From the NCBI GenBank assembly GCA_026388735.1, contig JAPLJG010000055.1, positions 1 to 52,141 of the forward strand: DNA of 52,141 nt, written 5' to 3'. The notes beneath the pieces were generated by a model that saw nothing but the letters and a program-made list of their open reading frames with translations, was not told where the DNA came from and did no database searches. How positions within the stretch are numbered: position 1 is the first letter of the stretch; each line of letters opens with the position of its first letter. The translations under genes were made by a program, and so were the position numbers. This stretch comes from Deltaproteobacteria bacterium (GTDB taxonomy: Bacteria; Desulfobacterota; Desulfobulbia; Desulfobulbales; Desulfurivibrionaceae). Shown in pieces: positions 4,015-8,318 of this stretch.

Positions 4015-5310
4015 CTAGGCAGCAGCGGGCACAATTTTCATCTTGGCTGCGTCAAGCAGGAAACTTAAGATTTTTTCGTTCAGCAGCTCCGCCATGAACG
4101 GCAGCAGGTCATCCCTGCTGGAAAAATATTTTTTCACTTCGCTGATCGGCATGTTGTACTGTTCGGAAATGCGTTTAAAGCCTTTGTCGATGTCTTCATT
4201 TTCCAGCTTGAGCCCTTCCTTTTCCGCGACCTTCTTCAAAAGGAAATCGCCCTTGACCCGTGCCTGAGCCGCAAGCTTATATTGCTCAATCAGGGCATCC
4301 CGGTTGAACCCGGCAGCTTCCAGAGTCATCCCCTGCCGCTCCAGGTTGCTTTCAAGCTCCTTGATCATTGCCTCTATTTCATAGGCCACCAGCCGAGGCG
4401 GAATCTCAAAATCATGATTTTCGATCAACACCCGCATCAACTTGTCGGTGAGATCGCCACGCTGGGCGTCCTTCTTGGCCTGTAGCTTTTTTTCACGAAT
4501 ATGGGCCTTGAGCGCCTCCAGGCTGGCAAAGTCCTCGCCCACTTCCTTGGCGAATTCGTCATCAAGAGCAGGCAGCAGCCGTTCCTTGACATCCTTGACA
4601 TTGAGCTTGAACTCCACCTTCTTGCCTGCCAGAATCGGATTGGCGAAGTTTGCCGGAAAATCTATTTCCTGAGAAGTTTCCTCGCCTTTCTTCAAACCAA
4701 TAAGTTTCTCTTCGAACTCGCTTCCATTTTGGCCGGCCCCCACATCAACCGAATAATTTTCTCCAACCACCTGCTTTATGGGGTTGCCGTTATGATACCC
4801 CTGAAAATCGATCACGGCCAGGTGCCCCTTGCCAATGGCACGGTCTTCAACGCTTTGCAGAGGAGCCATCTGCTTGCGCAGCGCTTCAAGTTCCTGGGAA
4901 ATCTCCTCGTCTGTCACCTCAAGCGCGGCCTGTTCGATCTCAAGGCCCTTATACTCAGCCAATTCGAACTGGGGCCGAACATCCACCTCTGCGGTGTAAA
5001 CAAAGGTGCCGTTCTCAGCAAATTTCTGTTCACGGATATCCGGGTGTACAACCGCGTCGATCTTGCTTTTCTCAAGGGCATCAAAATAGGTATCCTGGAT
5101 CAACTTCTCCGCCAAGTCATACTCAATCTTTGGCCGATAATTTTTTTCCAGCACCTGACGGGGCACCTTCCCCTTCCGAAACCCTTTCAATGAGACTTCA
5201 GAGTTTAGTTTCTTATAAGCGGACTCCAACTCCTGGGCAACCTGGGCTTCCGGCAGGGTGATAGTCATTTTTCTGGTAAGCGGGCTTACATCTTCGACAT
5301 TGATCTGCAT
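4015..5310 (-). CDS. tig: Trigger factor
   Basis: Trigger factor is the ribosome-associated chaperone and peptidyl-prolyl isomerase that meets nascent chains at the exit tunnel. I place the start at the ATG at 5308-5310 (MQINVEDVSPL), preceded by an AAGGTG ribosome site at proper distance. A longer frame seven codons upstream (MKQGRCC) is unlikely. The 431 residues show the N-terminal ribosome-binding domain with the FRKGKVP signature (about residue 45), an FKBP-type PPIase domain near 155-245 and the C-terminal helical arms. The stop codon is TAG. First protein gene of the tig-clpP-clpX-lon operon. Confidence 0.96.
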   Translation of the reverse strand: MQINVEDVSPLTRKMTITLPEAQVAQELESAYKKLNSEVSLKGFRKGKVPRQVLEKNYRPKIEYDLAEKLIQDTYFDALEKSKIDAVVHPDIREQKFAENGTFVYTAEVDVRPQFELAEYKGLEIEQAALEVTDEEISQELEALRKQMAPLQSVEDRAIGKGHLAVIDFQGYHNGNPIKQVVGENYSVDVGAGQNGSEFEEKLIGLKKGEETSQEIDFPANFANPILAGKKVEFKLNVKDVKERLLPALDDEFAKEVGEDFASLEALKAHIREKKLQAKKDAQRGDLTDKLMRVLIENHDFEIPPRLVAYEIEAMIKELESNLERQGMTLEAAGFNRDALIEQYKLAAQARVKGDFLLKKVAEKEGLKLENEDIDKGFKRISEQYNMPISEVKKYFSSRDDLLPFMAELLNEKILSFLLDAAKMKIVPAAA

Positions 5311-5351
5311 GCAACACCTTCCTTGTTTCAAACTTTTTTCAACAACACAGT

Positions 5352-5395
5352 CATACCGTGAAGGAACGTCTTCGAGGTTTTCTCCTCACGGTATG
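5352..5395 (-). other. Long hairpin between tRNA-Leu and tig
   Basis: CATACCGTGA (5352-5361) is perfectly repeated in inverted form as TCACGGTATG (5386-5395), with a 24-base loop. It lies in the minus-strand transcript between the tRNA and the tig start at 5310. There is no T-run after it, so it is not a standard terminator. It may be a processing site or a tig leader structure. Confidence 0.4.
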
Positions 5396-5414
5396 GATGA
5401 GATATTTGCCTATA

Positions 5415-5434
5415 CTCCGGCCTTCGAGCCGGAG
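5415..5434 (-). other. Short GC-rich hairpin 3' of tRNA-Leu
   Basis: CTCCGGC (5415-5421) pairs with GCCGGAG (5428-5434) around a 6-base loop, 11 bases downstream of the tRNA 3' end on the minus strand. No uridine tract follows on that strand. It is more likely a 3' processing or pausing structure than an intrinsic terminator. Confidence 0.35.
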
Positions 5435-5445
5435 CTGTTTTCTTG

Positions 5446-5529
5446 TGGTGCGAGAGGGGGGAGTCGAACCCCCATACCAAAGGCGCTGGTTCCTAAGACC
5501 AGTGCGTCTACCAATTCCGCCACTCTCGC
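5446..5529 (-). tRNA. tRNA-Leu (anticodon UAG)
   Basis: Read on the minus strand, the 84-base sequence folds as a class II tRNA. The acceptor stem is GCGAGAG/CTCTCGC, the D arm contains GAATTGGTAGACGC, the anticodon stem is CTGGT/ACCAG with loop CTTAGGA (anticodon TAG), there is a long variable arm, the T stem is GGGGG/CCCCC with TTCGACT in the loop, and discriminator A is followed by an encoded CCA. It would read CUA-type leucine codons. It lies upstream of tig on the same strand. Confidence 0.97.
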
Positions 5530-5726
5530 TTGAACATGGAAAAATAACCAACTTTCGGGTCACAGTCAAGGACGGCTTGCGATTTTATCCCGATTTAAAG
5601 CCAATTGCTCCCCCGAGGAGAGAGGACAACGGGCCGTTTCTCCGCCGTGGGCGCATAACCCAAACCTTTTCAAAAAACAAATACGAATACCAGCATTTCC
5701 ATTCCTGAAATTCGTCACAGCCCCAC

Positions 5727-5755
5727 TTGACAAGCCAGGGGAAAAAGGGTTTAAA
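5727..5755 (+). promoter_or_regulatory. Candidate sigma-70 promoter of the riboswitch operon
   Basis: TTGACA at 5727-5732 is followed after 17 bases by TTTAAA at 5750-5755. Transcription would begin near 5762, just before the riboswitch aptamer. The stretch between the tRNA (5529) and this promoter shows no gene or repeat that I can support. Confidence 0.6.
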
Positions 5756-5777
5756 AGCAAAAAAGAACAAACATTTC

Positions 5778-5937
5778 ATCATCCCGGAACACGGTGTAAA
5801 TCCGTGGCGGTCCCGCCGCTGTAATCGGGGATGCTGGTCAGCACAGGGAATTTCCCGGTCACTCCCAGAGCGTATCACTGTGGGGGGAAGGCCGCCGGCC
5901 AGCAGACGATCCGAAAGCCAGAAGACCTGGTGATAAT
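5778..5937 (+). promoter_or_regulatory. Cobalamin (B12) riboswitch
   Basis: The aptamer shows the family landmarks in order: CGGTGTAAATCCGTGGCGG with the following CCCGCCGCTGTAA (about 5792-5824), the ATCACTGTGG element (5876-5884), GGGAAGGC and the B12-box core AGCCAGAAGACCTGG (5916-5930). The core differs slightly from the usual GCCAGGAGACC. Known members bind adenosylcobalamin or related forms and reduce expression of the downstream gene. Here the aptamer is followed about 50 bases later by an intrinsic terminator, suggesting control by transcription attenuation of cbpA-cbpB. Confidence 0.9.
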
Positions 5938-5986
5938 GTTTCTCATGTATGTATTGCTGTTCGTCTGGGTATTCTAATGGAAACAG

Positions 5987-6028
5987 AACCCGGAGTGACT
6001 CCTATGGGGTTGCTCCGGGTTTTTTTTA
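5987..6028 (+). terminator. Intrinsic terminator, riboswitch expression platform
   Basis: AACCCGGAG (5987-5995) pairs with CTCCGGGTT (6013-6021), followed by an uninterrupted T-run. It sits between the cobalamin riboswitch and the cbpA start at 6061. It therefore probably forms when B12 is bound and stops transcription of the peptide operon. I did not identify an alternative antiterminator helix with certainty. Confidence 0.85.
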
Positions 6029-6060
6029 TGCACACTGATCAACAATAACAGGAGAACACC

Positions 6061-6189
6061 ATGAAAGCACAAAAACAGATCATTTCATACCGTCGGCGCT
6101 GCAACCTGATTGGCCAGGGAACCGGACTTTCCCATTATATCCTCCTCGCCCCCAGCGCGGACACAACACCAGAGGACGGCAGCAAGTAA
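6061..6189 (+). CDS. cbpA: CbpA-like modified peptide precursor (42 aa)
   Basis: A 42-residue ORF starts at the ATG at 6061, preceded by AGGAG at good distance. The peptide begins MKAQKQIISYRRRCNLIG, continues GQGTGLSHYILLAP and ends in an acidic tail (DTTPEDGSK). It has one cysteine, C14. Its stop codon overlaps the ATG of the radical SAM gene by one base (TAATG), so the two are translationally coupled. Position, length and context match what I recall of the CbpA precursor family: a short peptide under a cobalamin riboswitch, next to radical SAM enzyme CbpB. The modified residue and mature product cannot be told from sequence. C14, or the GQGTGLSHY segment, are the obvious candidates. Confidence 0.75.
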   Translation: MKAQKQIISYRRRCNLIGQGTGLSHYILLAPSADTTPEDGSK

Positions 6190-7580
6190 TGACACAAACA
6201 GACAAACAGACAGCAACGGCCATTTTCGCCAACACCGGTCATGGTCCGAATTTTTCCGTGCTGGAGATCGGCGATCCCGACCGGGTTGCGGTTGTAGAAG
6301 CGGACACGGCCTATTGGGCCCTGATTGACAGGGATGATCTGCCCCAGGCCCTGGCTGGCTCCATGGCCCAAGACTTCATGGTCCGGGCACCGGAGTTCCA
6401 GGCGGAAATGGACCACCTGCGCACGGGCTTGCAGCTCTCCGCCGCATATGTAAACCCCACCGAACGCTGCAACCTGAACTGCAGCTACTGCTACCTCCCC
6501 GAAGAGATGCGCAAAAACGGCATCGACATGGGGGAGGAAAAGCTGACGCTCGCCCTTGAACGGCTGCTGCAACATTTCCGGAAGATTTTGCCGGAAGGAG
6601 TAAAACCGCAGCTTATCTTCCACGGCAGCGAACCCATGGTGGCCAGGGATGCTGTGTTTGCCGCGATTGCGCGTTTTAAAAACGACTTCCATTTCGGCAT
6701 CCAGACCAACGCCACCCTGCTCGACGACACGGCAATCAGCTTTTTACGGGAACACAAGGTCGGCATCGGCCTATCCCTGGACGCCCCCACCGCAGAGGTC
6801 GCCAATTCCACCAGGAAGAACTGGCAGGGCAACGGCTATTACGACACCGTGGTCTCGGTGATCAAAAAACTCGTTGATTACCCGGCTCTCAATGTCATAA
6901 CCACCGTAACCCAAGCCAACGTGCATACCCTGACCGAGATGGTGGATTTTTATCACGGGCTGGGGGTGCGGGTGGTCATGCTCAATCCGGTGCGGTGCAC
7001 ACGTCAAGGCGGAATGGACCTGAAACCGGACAACCATGTTCTGGCCGAGGCTTTTTTTAAGGCGCTGGACCGATCTTTTGAGCTTTTTGAACAAACCGGC
7101 AGAAAGCTCGTCATCGCCAATTTTGCCAATGTTCTGGCCGGGGTTATCGGCCCGACCGGCCGCAGGCTGATGTGCGACATCTCTCCCTGCGGAGGCGGTC
7201 GTTGCTTCTTTGCCGTTGCCGCAGATGGCGAGGTCGTGCCGTGCAGCGAATTCATCGGCATGAACGAGTTTTCCGGAGGGAACATCTTTCGTGATGATCC
7301 TGCCGATATCCTTGCCAGCAAGCCCTTCCAGGAAGTAACCAACCGGAAGGTGGAAAAAATTATCCCCTGCGCAGGTTGCGCTATCCGGCATTTCTGCGGA
7401 GCGCCCTGCCCTGCCGAGATCTACAAGGTGTCCGGCGACATCAATGCACCGAGCCCTTACTGTAGCTTCTTTGAAGAGCAGGTGCGCCATGCCTTTCGGA
7501 TAATCTCACAACAGCGGGAGGATGCTTATCTCTGGAATAGCTGGCAGACCGAAACAGAAATGTCCTATTGCTGGAAGTAA
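6189..7580 (+). CDS. cbpB: Peptide-modifying radical SAM/SPASM enzyme, CbpB-like
   Basis: A 463-residue radical SAM enzyme. The canonical CxxxCxxC that ligates the SAM-binding [4Fe-4S] cluster is C94, C98 and C101 (in ERCNLNCSYCYLP). The C-terminal third (about 320-440) has many cysteines in a SPASM-like arrangement (CDISPCGGGRC, VVPCSE, IPCAGC, HFCGAPCP, YCSFFEE) expected to hold auxiliary Fe-S clusters. Such enzymes install thioether, C-C or other radical-based crosslinks on ribosomally made peptides. The substrate is very likely the 42-residue peptide whose stop overlaps this start. The N-terminal 85 residues could be a peptide-recognition region. A strong terminator follows the gene. Family assignment to CbpB rests on context and memory, not on a search. 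Confidence 0.82.
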   Translation: MTQTDKQTATAIFANTGHGPNFSVLEIGDPDRVAVVEADTAYWALIDRDDLPQALAGSMAQDFMVRAPEFQAEMDHLRTGLQLSAAYVNPTERCNLNCSYCYLPEEMRKNGIDMGEEKLTLALERLLQHFRKILPEGVKPQLIFHGSEPMVARDAVFAAIARFKNDFHFGIQTNATLLDDTAISFLREHKVGIGLSLDAPTAEVANSTRKNWQGNGYYDTVVSVIKKLVDYPALNVITTVTQANVHTLTEMVDFYHGLGVRVVMLNPVRCTRQGGMDLKPDNHVLAEAFFKALDRSFELFEQTGRKLVIANFANVLAGVIGPTGRRLMCDISPCGGGRCFFAVAADGEVVPCSEFIGMNEFSGGNIFRDDPADILASKPFQEVTNRKVEKIIPCAGCAIRHFCGAPCPAEIYKVSGDINAPSPYCSFFEEQVRHAFRIISQQREDAYLWNSWQTETEMSYCWK

Positions 7581-7594
7581 CTTTTTCCCATAAA

Positions 7595-7626
7595 AACCAG
7601 CCGGGGAGAGCCCCGGTTGGTTTTTT
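7595..7626 (+). terminator. Intrinsic terminator after cbpB
   Basis: AACCAGCCGGGG pairs with CCCCGGTTGGTT around a 4-base loop (AGAG) and runs into TTTTTT. This is a strong terminator 14 bases after the cbpB stop. It separates cbpB from the flavoprotein gene. Confidence 0.92.
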
Positions 7627-7739
7627 CTCGAAATTCTTCCTGTCCTTGCCAATCTCGATTACAATATCATGACAGATACACTCCCAACCGCCGCATAATA
7701 CCCCGATATCGTAAGCTGGAAAAACATGAGGAGAATGCC

Positions 7740-8318
7740 ATGAAAGTCGTCGCATTTAACGGAAGCGCCCGCAAGGGAGGAAATACCGCAAAATTGCTGA
7801 ATACCGCTTTGGAAGAGCTGTCTCGCCAAGGGATCGACACAGAGCTAGTGGAGTTGTCAGGCCAGCCGGTCTCCGGCTGCATCGCCTGCTACCAGTGTTT
7901 CAAGAACAAAGACAGTCGCTGCGCCGTAGAAAAAGACATCATCAACGACTGCCTTGCCAAGATGATCGCGGCGGATGGTATTCTCCTGGGTTCTCCGACC
8001 TACTTCGCCGATGTCTCCGCAGGGATGAAAGCCCTAATCGAGCGGTGCGGCATGGTTTCCCGGGCCAACGGCGATTTGTTCAAACGCAAGGCCGGAGCCG
8101 GGGTGGTGGCGGTGCGTCGGGCCGGAGCTATTCAGGTGTTCAACTCCCTCAACGCCTTTTTCCTCATCGGTCAAATGATCGTGGTGGGCTCTTCCTACTG
8201 GAATATCGGCATCGGCAGGGAGCCCGGCGAGGTGGTCAACGACGAAGAAGGCATAAAAACCATGCGCGACCTTGGCAGCAACATGGCCTGGCTCCTCCAG
8301 AAAATCAAAGCGGAATAA
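7740..8318 (+). CDS. Iron-sulfur flavoprotein / NADPH-dependent FMN reductase family
   Basis: A 192-residue flavodoxin-fold protein. The start MKVVAFNGSARKGGN is supported by GAGGAG 7-12 bases upstream; the open frame extends further 5' but that part looks noncoding. The N-terminal FNGSARKGGNT is the FMN phosphate loop. SGCIACYQCFKNKDSRC (about 44-60) gives C-x2-C-x2-C-x7-C, the compact cysteine motif of archaeal-type iron-sulfur flavoproteins, expected to bind [4Fe-4S]. SPTYFADVSAGMKALIER (about 84-101) is the family flavin/dimer motif. It probably moves electrons in the cytoplasm. It follows the cbpB terminator on the same strand, so it could be a reductant for CbpB, but it may also be independent. 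Confidence 0.85.
   Translation: MKVVAFNGSARKGGNTAKLLNTALEELSRQGIDTELVELSGQPVSGCIACYQCFKNKDSRCAVEKDIINDCLAKMIAADGILLGSPTYFADVSAGMKALIERCGMVSRANGDLFKRKAGAGVVAVRRAGAIQVFNSLNAFFLIGQMIVVGSSYWNIGIGREPGEVVNDEEGIKTMRDLGSNMAWLLQKIKAE

Follow-up and report, generated by a model that had tools for sequence, protein, structure and literature searches.

The window analysed here is a stretch of 52,141 nucleotides from a Deltaproteobacteria bacterium of the family Desulfurivibrionaceae (GenBank assembly GCA_026388735.1, contig JAPLJG010000055.1). Positions 5727-7626 of its forward strand hold a compact unit in which a cobalamin (B12) riboswitch precedes two overlapping genes, a cbpA-like open reading frame (ORF) for a short peptide and cbpB, coding for a radical S-adenosylmethionine (SAM) enzyme. 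The aptamer core spans 5786-5929, with the B12 box AAGCCAGAAGACCTG at its end. Rfam family RF00174 matches 5786-5926 (+) with 68.9 bits, over the gathering score of 31.5 (E 5.5e-15), and model R1, derived from 21 aptamers of which the window's is one, gives 135.8 bits. The aptamer is followed at 5985-6031 by an intrinsic terminator, the probable expression platform of the riboswitch: the terminator scan places a hairpin of 18 pairs at about 5985-6023, leading into a T run, and 5990-6032 folds with -22 kcal/mol (z -5.8), a stability reached by none of 200 shuffled sequences. The cbpA-like ORF (6061-6189, 42 residues, core YRRRCNLIGQGTGLSHYILL) has its own AGGAG ribosome-binding site at 6050-6054, and its stop codon shares one base with the start codon of cbpB (6189-7580, 463 residues) in the sequence TAATG. 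A second intrinsic terminator closes the unit at about 7593-7626, where a 15-bp hairpin with a T run folds with -25.2 kcal/mol (z -5.9); the pattern-based terminator scan did not list it on the plus strand. A first-pass annotation of this DNA had described the same succession, beginning with a promoter, and each of these elements was recovered except the promoter, for which there is a by-eye TTGACA-17-TTTAAA at 5727-5755, a consensus scan of 5600-7700 listing none.

The product of the second gene clearly belongs to the CbpB family. It scores 665.9 bits against NCBIfam TIGR04163 ('peptide-modifying radical SAM enzyme CbpB'), 290 bits over the cut-off of 375, and covers model positions 2-428 of 428. 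The next-best NCBIfam families are DynA (NF041298, 139.2 bits), PapB (NF047865, 136 bits) and the quinohemoprotein amine dehydrogenase maturase (TIGR03906, 130 bits), and the protein falls short of each of their cut-offs by more than 200 bits. The best family is therefore a peptide-modifying one and not, as the first-pass annotation had considered as a way of being wrong, one with a small-molecule substrate. Pfam recognises Radical_SAM (PF04055) and SPASM (PF13186) domains. The CxxxCxxC motif and cysteine-rich C-terminal part noted at first pass correspond to Cys94, Cys98 and Cys101 and to Cys329, Cys334, Cys352, Cys394, Cys397, Cys403, Cys407 and Cys425, all invariant in 49 aligned members. 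Of 395 genomes from the phylum, 36 carry a CbpB over the cut-off and, among the matches listed, no score lies between 407 and 123 bits. A scan of a genome collection kept 80 loci: 57 members with 46-92% identity (L033-L089, one of them partial and some from genomes already in the phylum search) and 23 other radical SAM proteins with at most 31% identity (L090-L112), which served as comparison loci. Judging from record titles and origins, the pair is carried by at least Thermodesulfobacteriota, Myxococcota, Pseudomonadota, Actinomycetota, Planctomycetota, Verrucomicrobiota, Omnitrophota, Nitrospirota and Elusimicrobiota, many of them represented by metagenome-assembled genomes (MAGs). The cbpB match of one genome, G414 (locus L053), contains a stop. 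In three actinobacterial loci (L054, L059 and L072), cbpB is followed by another radical SAM protein that falls in the CbpB blast cluster and starts about 0.8-0.9 kb downstream.

The window peptide matches the curated CbpA model, TIGR04164, at model positions 2-21 of 25 with 25.9 bits (E 5e-6); by the curated rule this predicted peptide is CbpA-like only. A profile rebuilt from 80 other CbpA peptides, excluding those of the window and its nearest relative L033 and including some that start a few codons early, gives it 55.5 bits (E 1.7e-16), the best of 1,328 frames of the window, the runner-up scoring 12.3 bits. By pattern search, a CbpA-like ORF with the core R-x-x-C-x(5-7)-G-L-S-H-Y adjoins cbpB in 84 of 87 loci; those of L006, L007 and L018 fell outside a narrower first pattern and were recovered by sequence reading and the wider pattern, and none was found in L050 and L083, which are ended by a contig edge, or in L036. 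Because the 87 loci include duplicates (L027/L043 and L028/L087, with the same peptides and aptamer coordinates), there are 76 unique cores. The pattern itself demanded the Arg, Cys, Gly, Leu and His, so that conservation is counted freely only for Ser, Tyr and the flanks: 71 of the 76 cores retain the Ser and 73 the Tyr, and in 74 the Cys is the only one of core and tail. Five residues separate Cys from Gly-Leu in 52 cores, six in 6 and seven in 18. The window peptide, which departs from curated CbpA in its sub-cut-off score, also has the seven-residue spacer before GLSHY. Compared with L033, its ORF shows eight silent codon differences, one of them in the stop codon, and three changed codons, which sit in the tail past the core. 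In the 45 CbpB genomes for which matches to TIGR04164 were counted, 41 have exactly one, as against none of 14 control genomes. The best match is below the cut-off in 14 of the 41, and the four genomes with no match (G162, G187, G211 and G352; loci L009, L010, L013 and L015) nevertheless have a divergent ORF by pattern; TIGR04164 therefore under-detects this branch. The assignment to CbpA/CbpB made at first pass thus holds for the enzyme by TIGR04163, and for the peptide by position, motif and rebuilt profile, the part that fails being the curated peptide cut-off; conservation of the small ORF among relatives and an Rfam hit for the aptamer, on which that annotation had staked its proposal, were both found.

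The ORF is short and sits between a riboswitch and an enzyme gene, as would a regulatory leader or a chance frame that is no substrate at all. We consider this extremely improbable and reject it on account of the core pattern in 84 of the 87 loci, the profile E-value among the window's frames, and genome G398 (locus L036), where no CbpA-like ORF lies near cbpB and the sole cbpA, of 31 codons and preceded by its own ribosome-binding site (AGGAGGTG), is on another contig (87 kb) than cbpB (61 kb). Its persistence without an adjacent cbpB argues for cbpA encoding a separate product, with the caveat that G398 is a MAG in which mis-binning is possible. No Rfam riboswitch was found in the 18 kb taken around this stand-alone gene. 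The gene (L120:9110-9202) is preceded, at a distance of about 125 bases, by a radical SAM/SPASM-like gene other than cbpB (L120:7791-8984), whose best family is TIGR04084 with 90 bits, under the cut-off of 225.

An AlphaFold2 model of CbpB, calculated with the 49 aligned members as input, has a mean pLDDT (predicted local distance difference test) of 89. Its best fold match in the PDB is 5why/5wgg (E 6.1e-22, about 21% identity), followed by anaerobic sulfatase-maturating enzyme and ChlB; 5wgg is also the closest solved relative by sequence (E 1.8e-34), and its title concerns thioether-bond formation. We take these entries to be the SCIFF maturase CteB. CbpB resembles the SCIFF maturase in combining radical SAM and SPASM domains; with 106.8 bits against a cut-off of 425 for TIGR03974, it is not a member of that family. 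The substrates also differ: SCIFF peptides have six Cys, going by the model name, while the window peptide has one, as do nearly all CbpA cores. Where a PqqD-like N-terminal domain might be sought, the model has three strands and two helices ahead of the barrel, and its alignment with 5why runs over 456 columns. PapB, among the next-best families above, is a ranthipeptide maturase that forms Cys thioethers, according to PMC9413430. With one conserved Cys in the peptide and thioether-forming relatives of the enzyme (5wgg and PapB), a Cys cross-link is the first guess for the modification that CbpB would introduce into CbpA.

The link to cobalamin recurs across the family. A cobalamin aptamer was found by Rfam upstream of cbpAB in 28 of the 30 loci L003-L032, the window's own locus (L019) counted, and by model R1 in 43 of the 57 loci L033-L089. 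In 33 of 44 aptamer-to-cbpA stretches (those 43 and the window's) there is a terminator, compared with 0-1 of 44 in shuffled controls (four shuffles at each of three stem lengths), which makes repression by corrinoid through premature termination the likely mode there. The remaining 11 stretches belong to five Actinomycetes/Actinobacteria loci, four alphaproteobacterial ones, L048 and L053, where the riboswitch may act on translation. From aptamer and terminator together it would follow that expression depends on a shortage of B12, as the first-pass annotation had proposed. For L038 and L078, which have no riboswitch of their own, the contig carries one on the same strand about 10 and about 14 kb upstream. 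Among the matches listed, 48 of 50 CbpB genomes, covering 50 of the 57 loci L033-L089, have at least one cobalamin riboswitch. B12 control of cbpAB is thus maintained through an own riboswitch in most loci and, in some, through that of the operon. Loci L046, L068, L069, L070 and L075 have at least one further cobalamin aptamer besides that of cbpA, some on the opposite strand.

Genes around the 57 loci and the window were clustered and then searched for families. The recurring neighbours are cobB/cbiA (9 loci), cobA (8), cobT and cobQ (7 each), cbiB (6), cobD, a BtuF-like gene and BtuC (5 each), cbiD, cobU, cbiC and cobS (4 each) and cbiG (3). By direct search, with the ABC-ATPase, Asn_synthase-like, Diphthami_syn_2 and TonB-receptor clusters left out of the counts, a cob/BtuFC gene lies within 10 kb of 19 of the 57 CbpB loci and of 2 of the 23 other radical SAM loci (Fisher p 0.026, relatedness uncorrected). 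Within 3 kb and on the same strand, the counts are 15 of 57 and 0 of 23. Such a close gene is found in 8 of 12 evaluable loci without an own riboswitch compared with 6 of 43 with one (Fisher p 7e-4, relatedness uncorrected), a test that leaves out L050 and L083, which are ended by contig edges. In L006 and L007, cbpAB follows CbiC. In L039, L047, L050, L061 and L084 it stands amid varying sets of CobT, CobS, CbiB, CobD, CobQ, BtuF, BtuC, CobA, ABC ATPase and TonB receptor, that is, genes for corrinoid uptake and lower-part assembly. On the CbpB tree, an operon label assigned by hand calls for 6 changes, and well-supported branches force 5 of these. Cobalamin riboswitches are also known to control B12-independent isozymes, and by analogy cbpAB might make a stand-in that spares a B12-dependent reaction during starvation; the minority of loci in which it stands amid corrinoid uptake and assembly genes fit a part in the making or use of corrinoid and not in its replacement, and we regard the stand-in as very unlikely.

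The other recurring clusters are an ABC (ATP-binding cassette) ATPase, generic by family search, in 13 loci, and Asn_synthase-like, TonB-receptor and Diphthami_syn_2 clusters in 4 loci each. A resistance-nodulation-division (RND)-type pair, named by eye, lies near cbpB in 5 and 4 loci, and cluster 19, an ORF antisense to cbpB in four loci, is an artefact. Radical SAM/SPASM enzymes often make secreted signals or antimicrobials of the class of ribosomally synthesized and post-translationally modified peptides (RiPPs), and the 13 loci with an ATPase might be read as exporting such a product at B12 shortage; in 5 of them the ATPase comes after BtuC, and the core is much alike across phyla, unlike that of most weapons, making a secreted product highly improbable in our view. 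Since no recurring peptidase or dedicated exporter was recognised, the product of CbpA probably stays inside the cell. PqqA exemplifies a different fate, being a peptide processed into the small redox cofactor pyrroloquinoline quinone (PQQ). CbpA could similarly yield a redox cofactor that reduces cob(II)alamin for adenosylation or loop assembly, which would account for a SPASM enzyme with one short precursor per genome and for the cobA adenosyltransferase next to cbpAB in 8 loci. We judge this improbable: conservation spans a long core instead of one or two residues, and no peptidase or further cofactor gene was recognised in clusters of at least four loci, clusters 10, 18 and 19 not having been family-searched.

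Several proteins accompany cbpAB in the corrinoid operons. An asparagine-synthase-like protein (PF00733) is encoded directly before cbpA or after cbpB in the salvage-type operons of L039, L047, L061 and L084, the L084 copy having weak similarity to lasso peptide cyclases; it could act on CbpA or on corrinoid amides. An ATP-pyrophosphatase-type protein (Diphthami_syn_2, PF01902) is encoded near cbpB in L047, L050, L061 and L084. Small radical SAM-type proteins without a family match lie between cbpB and btuF at L047:5644-6372 and at L061:4254-5138 and 5140-5859, the third by cluster only.

Which part of corrinoid metabolism is concerned was approached through the gene content of the carrier genomes. 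CbiC and CobS were scored in 80 of 86 CbpB genomes (dropping G042, a fragment, and G073, G257, G316, G334 and G443; G236 and G405 have the same CbiC and CobS coordinates and are duplicates), and CbiF in 22. CbiC is present in 63 of the 80, CobS in 72 and either one in 76. Among good CbpB genomes 29 of 30 have CbiC, the exception being the window's own, as against 43 of 80 CbpB-negative genomes from the phylum with a completeness of at least 95% each, hand-picked roughly in order with some skipped (p 9e-6, relatedness uncorrected). Of the 17 CbpB genomes without CbiC, G005 and G439 have an over-cut-off CbiF. Fourteen lack both of these ring markers; 11 of the 14 have CobS, including G401, G409, G421 and G442 (the genomes of L039, L047, L061 and L084), and in 11 of the 14 there are one or two CbiF matches under the cut-off, of at most 158.6 bits, which are taken for putative uroporphyrinogen methyltransferase kin. 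These figures bear on the proposal that matured CbpA is a cobalt metallophore or chaperone feeding the chelatase at low B12, its conserved Cys, His and Tyr binding the metal. B12 control, the location in cob operons, the near-universal CbiC of good CbpB genomes and a core with one Cys and one GLSHY segment, features of a metal-binding kind, all speak for it. Set against them are the 11 genomes with cbpB and CobS and without CbiC and over-cut-off CbiF (genes for cobalt insertion and transport being outside the scored set), and the absence of CbiC, CbiD and CbiG within 10 kb in L047, L061 and L084, and we consider the cobalt proposal rather improbable. Loci with uptake and assembly genes only, together with the 11 CobS genomes lacking ring markers, make a role on finished or imported corrinoid more likely than one in cobalt insertion. 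The enrichment of CbiC and the existence of carriers without ring markers both fit handling of finished corrinoid.

The window's own genome has one other cobalamin riboswitch among those found, heading an operon of TonB receptor, BtuF-CbiZ, TonB, CbiA, BtuF, BtuC and BtuD; this is a salvage and remodelling operon, and its CbiA retains the amidotransferase domain. One ORF of this operon (L113:6482-8488) fuses a BtuF-like binding protein to CbiZ (PF01497 and PF01955).

The reading that we favour, with slightly more confidence than doubt, is that cbpAB is a self-contained, B12-repressed RiPP unit whose modified peptide acts inside the cell in the handling of corrinoid, downstream of ring assembly. 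With corrinoid plentiful, the aptamer would bind it and the terminator at 5985-6031 would halt transcription; with corrinoid scarce, the peptide and its enzyme would be made. CbpB would bind the short, Lys/Arg-rich CbpA and modify its core by SAM radical chemistry, most likely at the conserved Cys and possibly by a cross-link towards the GLSHY segment. The matured peptide would remain intracellular and would bind, deliver or finish imported or newly made corrinoid, after ring assembly and cobalt insertion. The parts of the unit, the conservation of the peptide, the enzyme family, the riboswitch link, the operon link to cob/btu genes in a minority of loci and the presence of the pair in genomes where neither of two ring-synthesis markers was found are directly supported, and neighbourhoods and gene presence point to the corrinoid-handling role. 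The first-pass annotation had suggested a cobalamin-related carrier or cofactor, and the corrinoid link of that suggestion is now backed by gene neighbourhoods. A more specific version, in which matured CbpA binds the corrin cofactor with the GLSHY His as axial ligand and acts as an intracellular salvage carrier or cofactor-chaperone made only when B12 is short, is tentative and, in these particulars, unlikely.

Several observations weigh against the corrinoid-handling reading. The enrichment of cob/BtuFC genes within 10 kb is modest, and 38 of the 57 CbpB loci have no scored cob/btu gene in that range, so that the riboswitch, where present, is their only corrinoid link. G398 and G409, 2 of the 50 CbpB genomes, have no cobalamin riboswitch among the matches listed; G409 (L047) has cbpAB amid cob/btu genes, and B12 control is not seen there. 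CbiC is commoner in CbpB genomes, as could be expected equally of a role in synthesis. Among the 14 genomes that lack ring markers, 13 are MAGs whose completeness is unstated, the only isolate being G441 (Dechloromonas hankyongensis, L082), and G414, with its interrupted cbpB, counts among the 11 that have CobS. The window's own genome has neither CbiC, nor an over-cut-off CbiF, nor CobS; in its near twin G395, CobS and CbiF are present together with a fragment of CbiC, indicating that assembly gaps matter, and the own genome was therefore set aside. Within the same GTDB family, 4 other genomes have no CbpB, and neither do 11 from the same order; it is thus dispensable. As to the pair itself, the window peptide, with 25.9 bits, does not reach the 35 bits that the curated TIGR04164 model demands, Pfam did not recognise a RiPP recognition element (RRE) domain in CbpB residues 1-84, and we know of no experiment on any CbpAB member.

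In the one open-access library searched, no description of the CbpA/CbpB pair was found, most subscription papers being outside that search, in agreement with the first-pass remark that product and chemistry are not characterized. Two candidate sources were rejected: in the parts of the texts available, the only CBP term of PMC12727194 is the Pfam name CBP_BcsQ, and 'Cbp' occurs in PMC5682303 only in journal identifiers. The family is known by name (TIGR04163/TIGR04164) but uncharacterized, and what is added here is a sharper functional hypothesis. A parallel is offered by the cobamide transport loci of Bacteroidetes, where, according to PMC8941943, the accessory protein BtuH binds B12 and is needed for efficient transport. 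As described there, these loci likewise tie an accessory gene to B12-regulated uptake; BtuH is a B12-binding protein, whereas CbpA is a short peptide served by a radical enzyme of its own, and binding by CbpA is hypothetical.

The unit is flanked upstream, on the opposite strand, by a tRNA gene, trigger factor, a clpP-like ORF (identified by eye) and clpX. Directly after the cbpB terminator, an NADPH-dependent FMN reductase-like gene (PF03358) occupies 7740-8318 (+), with a homologue also after cbpB in the near twin L033. As a linked part of the unit it is a weak candidate, its cluster having three members only (the window, L033 and L037).

Genomes that carry cbpB without ring markers argue against cobalt insertion, with the caveat that incomplete MAGs are among them. 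Gene neighbourhoods put CbpAB in corrinoid handling, whereby the role of the peptide becomes testable. Should CbpA prove to bind or deliver corrinoid, B12 metabolism would gain a component of a new kind.

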